This document shows, one piece after another, positions 15,951-18,637 of a DNA stretch of 64,000 bases. The DNA comes from Candidatus Lindowbacteria bacterium RIFCSPLOWO2_12_FULL_62_27. GTDB taxonomy: Bacteria > Lindowbacteria > 2-12-FULL-62-27. The DNA lies in NCBI GenBank assembly GCA_001784175.1, contig MFPR01000020.1:215248-279247 (forward strand), written 5' to 3'. Under the pieces are notes generated by a model. It was not told where the DNA came from. It saw only the letters and a list, made by a program, of their open reading frames with translations, and did not search any database. Made by a program: the position numbers and the translations under genes. Position 1 is the stretch's first letter. Every line of letters starts with the position of its first letter.

Positions 15951-16151
15951 CCCTGTGTTTCCCCCTACCACCACCCCAAGCCAAGCCCCCCTCAGGGGCT
16001 CTTGTTTGATCTTCGGTATGCAGGGGCCTGGACTTTAAAATTCTTCAGCAAAGATGTGTACATTTGCAATTGTTTGAAGTATGGTGCGGCCCTGTGTCAG
16101 AGGATGAGGGAATCCCCGAGCATTCAAATCGAAAGGACATGACGGATCCAT

Positions 16152-17138
16152 ATGCGAGAACTTAAGCGGCATCACCGCGCTGACGCAGCATCGTTTTCCC
16201 GCCAGAATCGCAGGGGGCCCAGGATGGACACCCGGAGGGCGCCCTCGCAGGCGCCGGCGCCTACCGCGGTCCGGAAGGCGTTCGAGCAGTTGACGGCGAC
16301 GCATCCGACGCAGCGAATGGTCATGGAAACGCGGCCGGAGGAAAAACTGGGGCGCTGGATGGACCTGCTCACGCCGATCGGCCGGGGTCAGCGGTGCCTG
16401 ATCGTGGCGCCGCCGAAGACCGGCAAGACGACGCTACTCAAAACGATTTCGCAGGCTCTGACCCAGAACCATCCCGAGGTGGTCCAACTGGTGCTTTTGG
16501 TGGATGAGCGCCCGGAGGAGGTGACGGATTTTGAGCGGTCGGTGAAGGCGAAGGTGGTGGCGTCGTCGTCGGACAAATCGACCGAAAACCATATTGCCCG
16601 GACGCGGGGTGTTCTGGAGGAGGCGATGCAGGCGGTGCTGGACGGTCGCGACGCGATCATTCTCCTCGACTCGATCACACGGCTGGCGCGGGCCTTCAAC
16701 CTGCATTCCAATTCCAACTCCAAAACCCTCTCGGGGGGACTGGGCGCGCAGGCGATGCAGGAGCCCCGCCAGTTTTTTGGCGCGGCTCGGTATGTCGAGA
16801 ACGGCGGGAGCCTGACGGTGGTGGCGACCGCGCTGATTGAAACGGGATCCCGGATGGACGACGTGATATTTCAGGAATTCAAGGGCACCGGAAACATGGA
16901 GCTGGTTCTGTCGCGGGACCTCGCGGAGAAGCGGTGTTTCCCCGCGATCAATATCCGCGAGTCCGGCACGCGGAAAGAGGAGCTCTTGTATCCCGAGGAT
17001 CAGTACCGCGGGCTGGTGTCGCTGCGCCAGATCATGAGCCAGCTCAGCCCGGACGACGCCTTCCGGATGGTGGACAAAGTTCTGACGGACTTTCGGAGAA
17101 ACCAGGATCTCCTGCTGCAGCTCGGGTCAGGCAGGTAA
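16152..17138 (+). CDS. rho: Transcription termination factor Rho, lacking the N-terminal RNA-binding domain
   Basis: Hexameric RNA translocase ATPase. The C-terminal motor is complete: linker [39 protein letters not shown] (Walker A), [12 protein letters not shown], Walker [16 protein letters not shown]-loop [14 protein letters not shown] and R-loop [13 protein letters not shown]. At 328 residues it is about 90 short of normal Rho: the helical bundle and cold-shock-type primary RNA site are missing, replaced by ~45 basic/Pro-rich residues. Only ~200 bases separate it from murA, so no N-domain can be hidden upstream. ATG 16152 has AAAGGA 14 bases upstream; ATG 16224 is an alternative. Context (prmC, prfA, rpmE) is that of the ordinary rho locus. 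Confidence 0.93.
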
Positions 17139-17205: not shown

Positions 17206-17401
17206 TCACCCGGCAGGGGGGGTGAAGCGGAATTCGGCGACGCGGGGGAGACCCGCGAGGTCCGGATGAAGGGCGGCCAGACGAAGCGGCGAATTCTCCA
17301 ACAATCCGCCGGACTCCAGGGCCGCAGCGATCCGCGGGGACACTTCTAGGAACAACGCGCCGTCCGGCCGAAGGTGGCGGGCGGCGGACCTGAAAATCCT
17401 A
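17206..17401 (-). pseudogene. Detached duplicate of the prmC 3' end
   Basis: Bases 17222-17401 repeat 17757-17936 (the 3' coding end of prmC) with seven mismatches in 180 (96% identity). On the minus strand this copy reads RHLRPDGALFLEVSPRIAAAL...RVAEFRFTPPAG and then stops at 17206-17208, a natural-looking PrmC C-terminus. Five of the seven differences are synonymous and two are conservative (I/L, L/F), so the copies diverged while under selection. It has no upstream coding sequence and is cut off from prmC by the element at 17402-17756. Confidence 0.85.
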
Positions 17402-17425
17402 GGAGCACGAGAGCACGAAGAGCAC

Positions 17426-17467
17426 GGAGCACGACGCCAGACCGTAGGAGCACGACGCCAGACCGTA
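17426..17467. repeat. Two tandem copies of a 21-bp unit
   Basis: 17426-17446 and 17447-17467 are identical (unit begins GGAGCACGACGCCAG). The second copy runs into the left inverted repeat of the adjacent element, and shorter GAGCACGA variants precede it. Confidence 0.85.
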
Positions 17468-17741
17468 AGTTGTTAAGTTGTTTTGTAAGTCGAACACGAG
17501 GAGCCAGTTTCTGTTCACGTAAACGTGGGGTAGTGCGATAGTTTCTGGACGGCGGGAGGGAAGTTGAGCCACCGGGATACGGTGGTGGAATCGTGTCCCC
17601 TGTGAGCGGCCTTGGGCGGCATATGATTAGGCCCATAGCAACGCTTTCGCAGTTATTACGGCATACAAAGCCGTCTATACGCCGACTGCATCCTTCTCAC
17701 CTCAGAAAAGATACAGAACAACTTAACAACTTACGGTCTGG
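17458..17741. mobile_element. Small non-coding element with 25-bp perfect inverted repeats, inserted at the 3' end of prmC
   Basis: 17458-17482 and 17717-17741 are perfect 25-bp inverted repeats (outer end CCAGACCGTAAG, inner part TTGTTAAGTTGTT), so the element spans 284 bp. The core has no convincing gene. It contains several short self-complementary stretches (for example CACGTAAACGTG, near 17517) and may form a structured RNA. It supplies the last ten codons and stop of prmC. The whole block between the two prmC 3'-end copies is 17402-17756. There is no obvious target-site duplication other than the 180-bp prmC repeat. It resembles a MITE or a 3'-end-restoring insertion; I do not recognise the family. 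Confidence 0.6.
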
Positions 17742-18637
17742 TGCCGTGCCGGTGCCGTGAAGCGTAATTCGGCGACGCGGGGGAGACCCGCGAGGTCCGG
17801 ATGGAGGGCGGCCAGACGAAGCGGCGAATTCTCCAACAATCCGCCGGACTCCAGTGCCGCCGCGATCCGAGGGGACACTTCCAGGAACAACGCGCCGTCC
17901 GGCCGAATGTGGCGGGCGGCGGACCTGAAAATCCTACGATAAACCGTGAGGCCGTCCCCTTCGTCGGTCAGGGCCAATCTTGGCTCGAAGCGGCGGATGG
18001 CGGGCGGCAGGGCTTCAAATTCCTCCAAGGACAAATACGGCGGATTGGATACGATCAGATCGAATCTGAGATCGGACGGAAACGGGAATAGGTTTCTGTG
18101 CAGGATGCGGACGCGGCCGAGAAGACCGAGGGCCGCGACGTTTTTCACGGCGATTCGCGCCGCCGGCCCGGAGATTTCCGTCGCCGTGATCGAACACTCA
18201 GGGCGGGCGCGGGCCAGGGCCGCCGCGATGCATCCGGAGCCGGCGCCGATCTCACACACTTGGATTTTAGATTTTAGATTTTTGATTTTAGATTGATGCG
18301 CAATCCATCGTGACGCCTGCTCGACCAGGTGTTCTGTTTCCGGTCTTGGGATCAGGACATGCTCGTCCACATAGAACGGGAGTGAAAAAAATTCCTTTTT
18401 GTTCAAGAGGTACGCGACCGGTTTGTGTCCCGCTCTCTGGCGGACCCGTTCGCGGAACGCCGAAATCTCGATGTCGGTGAGGCGGCGTTCCCTGCCGGCG
18501 AGGAGGCGTTCGCGGGGGAGGTCGAGCGTATGGGCGAGGATGAGTTCGGCGTCGAGGCGAGCGGTGTCGATACCGCGTTTTTTGAAGAAGTCCTCCGTGG
18601 TCGAGAGGATGGCACCGACGTTCCAGGATTCTTTCAA
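17723..18637 (-). CDS. prmC: Release factor (glutamine-N5) methyltransferase PrmC, with altered C-terminus
   Basis: Methylates the GGQ glutamine of release factors RF1/RF2. It has VCEIGAGSGCIAAALA (motif I), the catalytic SNPPYLSLEE (NPPY) and FLEVSPRIAAAL. TTG 18637 is chosen: AGGA lies six bases upstream, and the gene is coupled to the end of prfA. Two oddities: an AT-rich stretch encodes HQSKIKNLKSKIQ just before motif I, and the last ten residues (APARHQTVSC) come from the inserted inverted-repeat element, the stop lying within its right repeat. The catalytic core looks intact. Confidence 0.92.
   Translation of the reverse strand: MKESWNVGAILSTTEDFFKKRGIDTARLDAELILAHTLDLPRERLLAGRERRLTDIEISAFRERVRQRAGHKPVAYLLNKKEFFSLPFYVDEHVLIPRPETEHLVEQASRWIAHQSKIKNLKSKIQVCEIGAGSGCIAAALARARPECSITATEISGPAARIAVKNVAALGLLGRVRILHRNLFPFPSDLRFDLIVSNPPYLSLEEFEALPPAIRRFEPRLALTDEGDGLTVYRRIFRSAARHIRPDGALFLEVSPRIAAALESGGLLENSPLRLAALHPDLAGLPRVAELRFTAPARHQTVSC
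18262..18296. repeat. AT-rich microsatellite-like insertion in prmC
   Basis: Degenerate tandem GATTTTA/GATTTTT units in an otherwise GC-rich gene. On the minus strand they read SKIKNLKSKI, a peptide typical of dispersed low-complexity repeats. The insertion keeps frame and falls in the linker between the helical N-domain and the methyltransferase domain. Confidence 0.7.

Follow-up and report, generated by a model that had tools for sequence, protein, structure and literature searches.

The short rho gene and its surroundings

The window analyzed here, a 64-kb stretch (64,000 nucleotides) of the genome of Candidatus Lindowbacteria bacterium RIFCSPLOWO2_12_FULL_62_27, is part of contig C20 of an assembly (G000) of 4.39 Mb that is 94% complete. 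It carries a forward-strand open reading frame, called with an ATG start codon, whose product is a Rho paralog lacking the cold-shock domain (CSD). The following features were assigned.

16140 to 16142, + strand: in-frame TGA, three codons before the ATG of the short rho gene, closing the reading frame
16152 to 17138, + strand: CSD-less Rho paralog of 328 amino acids, linker plus complete ATPase core (open reading frame, Pfam, TIGR00767, alignment, AlphaFold, Foldseek)
16152 to 16271, + strand: disordered N-terminal tail, residues 1 to 40 (composition, AlphaFold)
16401 to 16430, + strand: Walker A motif, or P-loop (alignment)
16503 to 16520, + strand: DERPEE motif with the catalytic Glu and the Arg valve, E. 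coli E211 and R212 (alignment)
16545 to 16577, + strand: paralog-signature segment, SSDK in place of canonical TFDE at E. coli positions 231 to 234 (alignment)
16710 to 16739, + strand: Q-loop region, with P279 replaced by N, V/I284 replaced by T, and K283 kept (alignment)
16842 to 16853, + strand: R-loop, TGSR (alignment)

The translational start is ambiguous, as a ribosome-binding-like sequence is better placed for the ATG at residue 25, and a promoter scan gave no signal above chance. Upstream, murA starts at position 15974 on the other strand, 177 bases from the ATG; together with the closed reading frame, this gap leaves no room for an N-terminal domain of about 130 residues. Pfam recovered the ATP-synt_ab fold only, with no match to Rho_N or Rho_RNA_bind, and the alignment to TIGR00767 was restricted to positions 123 to 413 of the 415 in the profile. 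The profiles for the helical bundle (PF07498) and the CSD (PF07497) found nothing in the short protein, and their matches within the genome were confined to another Rho gene. The original prediction that both N-terminal domains are absent and could not be accommodated before murA is thus confirmed. A hidden or frameshifted N-terminal domain was ruled out by the closed frame and by the absence of a CSD anywhere in the 64-kb window, and an assembly error, which had been raised as a possible cause of the missing 5' third, was excluded by the occurrence of the short form in two sister genomes that were assembled independently.

Against TIGR00767, the short protein scored 385 bits, under the cutoff of 509, but with the equivalog model NF006886 it reached 401 bits, above the cutoff of 315, so NCBI annotation would call this ATPase-only protein simply "Rho."

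The neighboring genes in the window encode PrmC, RF-1 (prfA), L31 (rpmE), and MurA (EPSP_synthase fold), with prmC-prfA-rpmE convergent with short rho. These genes had been recognized correctly, but the idea that they mark the standard rho position did not hold: the ortholog in sister genome G002 is flanked by an FAD oxidoreductase gene and a ThiS-like gene, that in sister genome G001 (on a 4.5-kb contig) has unrelated neighbors, and PrmC, RF-1, and L31 are absent beside both orthologs within the sequence examined. The place of the gene in the window is therefore not shown to be the ancestral rho locus. No operon partner conserved across CSD-less Rho members was found, and the gene neighborhood, not being conserved, gives no pointer to function. 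In two relatives the CSD-less rho lies directly after glmS, overlapping or abutting it, and is followed by an amidohydrolase-like gene (L231, G070:C46, 3117 to 6007; L233, G210:C36, 4965 to 7885); in the window, 3.7 kb separate short rho from the downstream glmS. Next to the gene, the 3' end of prmC is present as a 192-nucleotide direct repeat (94%) at 17213 to 17404 and 17748 to 17939. The two copies flank an insert of about 343 nucleotides bounded by 38-nucleotide inverted repeats (17450 to 17487 and 17712 to 17749), the palindromic core of which, about 25 nucleotides long, recurs at about a dozen further sites in the genome; the insert resembles a dispersed element of the REP/MITE type.

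Motor residues, predicted fold, and tail

Alignment to E. coli Rho bore out the expectation of an ATPase motor with all of its motifs. In E. coli numbering, the short protein retains Walker A K184 and T185, catalytic E211, R212, Walker B D265, R269, K283, the R-loop residues T323-G324-S325, R353, and, as the arginine finger, R366. An AlphaFold model of the protein, built from nine short Rhos, gave a confident Rho C-terminal domain, with pLDDT values of >90 over most of residues 41 to 328 and of about 40 to 50 over residues 1 to 30, in keeping with a disordered tail. Foldseek matched the short Rho model to E. coli and Thermotoga Rho in the PDB, with a TM score of 0.82 and an rmsd of 1.5 to 1.8. 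The 40-residue tail is 23% Arg and has a net charge of +7; across the sister genomes its Arg richness and composition are conserved, but its sequence is not.

A full-length rho gene on contig C2

The gene in the window had been taken as probably encoding the main Rho of the cell. This was wrong: a genome search for a second, full-length Rho, specified beforehand as the finding that would count against the claim, located one on contig C2 (G000:C2:6354-7601), with a score of 670 bits, over the cutoff, and with both helical bundle and CSD present. Its nearest relative in the tree is the full-length Rho of G001, and in G000 and G001 alike the gene adjoins that for a family-2 glycosyltransferase; this close relationship and similar gene setting make mis-binning of contig C2 unlikely. 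A stand-alone Rho N-terminal domain, also sought with the PF07497 and PF07498 profiles, was found nowhere else in the G000 genome. The short Rho is an accessory paralog and not the main terminator of the cell. What survives of the original prediction is its question: a conserved Rho motor without a primary RNA site does need another loading route.

Conservation in Candidatus Lindowbacteria

Short Rho is present in all three genomes of the phylum that were examined (G000, G001, and G002), at 73 to 77% identity, although the 5' end of the G001 copy is cut off by a contig end. Across the sister genomes the core has a dN of 0.16 and a dS of 1.07 to 1.19, giving a dN/dS of about 0.14, a rough value because dS is high; the substitution pattern points clearly to purifying selection. 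Identity to the full-length Rho of the same genome is 49%, and this lower value, together with placement in the tree, rules out a recent truncation of the organism's own rho gene. In G002, which is 81% complete, the short form only was seen, with no full-length Rho. On these comparisons, the short Rho is a real and conserved paralog.

Distribution of Rhos without a CSD

A profile of the short form was run on 386 diverse genomes, and all Rhos of two-Rho genomes were taken and scored with HMMs for the helical bundle and the CSD; class was set by domain presence and not by open-frame length, because long tails mask the absence of the CSD. Rhos without a CSD were found in at least 15 of the 386 genomes, a minimum because second copies with weaker matches could lie under the threshold, in nine GTDB families, and on one IMG/VR contig. 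All 12 full-length partners examined carried both helix and CSD. When the same 386 genomes were searched for the CSD, a Rho motor was found, among the CSD-negative genomes listed, which were all but eight of those without a CSD, only in G002 and in G195, the second Rho of which (L222) is cut by a contig end; among the genomes listed, no well-assembled one had a CSD-less Rho alone.

The tails of most CSD-less members span 34 to 248 residues, look disordered, contain 18 to 39% Arg and often Gly, and have a net charge of +5 to +39. Exceptions are G020, which is nearly without an Arg tail, so the tail is not essential to every member, and the viral-contig member, which is Lys rich. The latter, a CSD-less Rho of about 322 amino acids, lies on a contig from the viral collection (L163, 2899 to 3864; IMGVR_UViG_2909979649_000009) that may represent host DNA in a provirus call. 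An origin from phage or plasmid was rejected: among the matches listed, identities were about 50 to 60% and the Rhos were host type in appearance, judged with their N termini set aside, and this contig was the only one with a CSD-less Rho among the IMG/VR contigs seen and belonged to another subgroup.

Phylogeny and signature positions

In the tree, the window Rho groups with those of G001 and G002 (support, 100/99), then with G020 and G060 (100/95), and then with G070 and G210 (95/82). Canonical full-length Rhos form their own clade (94/98), and the CSD-less groups fall outside it. With FliI, a very distant outgroup, as the root, all second Rhos in that tree, both CSD less and CSD only, form one group (93/97), within which the CSD-less Rhos sit at two or three places; the deep branching order is uncertain because of long branches. 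The simplest reading of this topology is that a second Rho lineage lost the helical bundle first and the CSD later, once or several times.

Substitutions that are group-wide relative to full-length Rho cluster near E. coli positions 226 to 238, 279, and 294 to 299. Position 232 is F in 109 of 109 Rhos with helix and CSD; among the 19 Rhos assigned to the class without a CSD, 15 combine S232 with T284, and the other four include L222, a canonical Rho cut by a contig end. The window Rho carries the CSD-less group signature S232/T284/M294/R298, and P279 is replaced in every CSD-less member of the three groups. More widely, TFDE (231 to 234), P279, V/I284, L294, and K298 change jointly in second Rhos without the helical bundle, which could identify residues reliant on the missing N-terminal domain.

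Proposed role and alternatives

We favor, with moderate confidence, an accessory Rho-type motor, built of linker and C-terminal domain, that loads without a rut-specific primary site. Such a protein would be a hexameric, ATP-driven nucleic acid translocase, hexamer formation and translocation both being presumed; its sequence-specific primary site for rut is lost, with a short, disordered, Arg-rich tail standing in its place. Ordinary rut-dependent termination would be carried out by the full-length Rho, and RNA would enter the central secondary site of the short Rho directly, probably aided by the Arg-rich tail, which would capture RNA nonspecifically, and/or by a recruiting protein such as NusG (for which the genome has one gene) or RNA polymerase. 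The short Rho would then act at sites needing no rut. Three published observations underlie the proposal of an accessory translocase with direct loading of the central channel: primary-site defects in E. coli Rho are not lethal, and termination still takes place at most sites through loading of the secondary site with the help of NusG (PMC4150792); an N-terminal fragment of M. tuberculosis Rho that is rich in Arg, Asn, Asp, and Gly and has no canonical RNA-binding motifs binds RNA (PMC4167861); and in Bacteroides, RNA-dependent condensation is governed by disordered segments of Rho that carry charge (PMC13269538).

The short Rho might instead be a regulatory subunit that forms mixed hexamers with full-length Rho, lowering the number of primary sites and so tuning or damping termination. 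The cross-subunit residues R353 and R366 are invariant in both forms, and the short form occurs alongside full-length Rho wherever the assembly permits a check, but the identity of about 49% and the substitutions around positions 226 to 238, 279, and 294 to 299 suggest drift between the forms, and an inhibitor would not need to keep all of the catalytic residues; we consider this explanation unlikely. We are similarly doubtful of a motor with functions outside termination, such as R-loop removal, clearing of stalled RNA polymerase, or mRNA remodeling. Mutation of P279 in E. coli Rho causes a severe termination defect (PMC1950744), so the replacement of this residue across CSD-less Rhos indicates that termination activity may be altered, and the combination of a lost rut site, a replaced P279, and retained ATPase residues, as well as the position after glmS in two relatives rather than among transcription genes, would fit such a role, but nothing specific points to an R-loop, stalled-polymerase, or mRNA substrate. 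That the short form is the main Rho, in a genome that terminates without primary-site RNA binding, would accord with G002, where it was the only Rho seen, but is very improbable given the full-length Rhos of G000 and G001, the incompleteness of G002, and the pairing of the two forms in the well-assembled survey genomes listed. A decaying or artifactual fragment of full-length rho, which the loss of the N-terminal third might suggest, is scarcely credible against a frame that is open in three genomes, the low dN/dS, a coding-like base composition, and a deep, separate branch.

Relation to known Rho proteins

The window Rho shares with canonical Rho (TIGR00767/NF006886) the linker, the ATPase core, the catalytic, R-loop, and arginine-finger residues, and the predicted fold, but it has neither the Rho_N bundle nor the Rho_RNA_bind CSD, its N terminus is a disordered Arg-rich tail, and it differs at TFDE (SSDK), P279N, V/I284T, L294M, and K298R. 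A related named family is NF041509 (paralog_Rho2; "Rho, short form"), likewise a second Rho beside a full-length one and with partly common signature residues. The CSD-only paralogs examined share with the window Rho the absence of the helical bundle, but they retain the CSD, which the window Rho lacks; the NF041509 model has 360 positions, and with 327 bits against a cutoff of 628, the window Rho is not a member of the family as defined. The CSD-less form looks like a further variant beyond the CSD-bearing NF041509 of NCBI. Rhos of Mycobacterium and Bacteroides also have a disordered N-terminal segment, rich in Arg or Lys, that has been linked to condensation or to the binding of RNA (PMC4167861, PMC13269538), but those proteins are main Rhos of full length with the primary site retained, whereas the window tail replaces that site and does so in a second Rho. 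We found no description of CSD-less Rho paralogs in the open-access literature, the scope of the search, which makes this weak evidence of novelty, as subscription papers and preprints lay outside it.

As a tentative generalization, CSD-less Rhos may constitute a distinct and widespread second class of Rho motor in which a disordered RGG/Arg-rich tail takes the place of the rut-binding domain, with sequence-blind RNA loading, possibly in condensates, that would give rut-independent termination or RNA clearing beside the normal Rho. If the motor works, it would offer a natural experiment of a Rho without a primary site, the full-length Rho of that cell serving as the control, and the debated choice between rut-dependent and NusG- or RNA polymerase-assisted loading of Rho would become directly testable. 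Under the plain name assigned through NF006886, this second class of rho genes stays concealed in several lineages. A separate observation concerns a single-contig genome of 6.8 Mb in which the Rho motor profile matches two overlapping pieces in different frames, with open frames of 291 and 168 amino acids (G053:C1:133576-134446), representing either a frameshift, an error, or a split gene.
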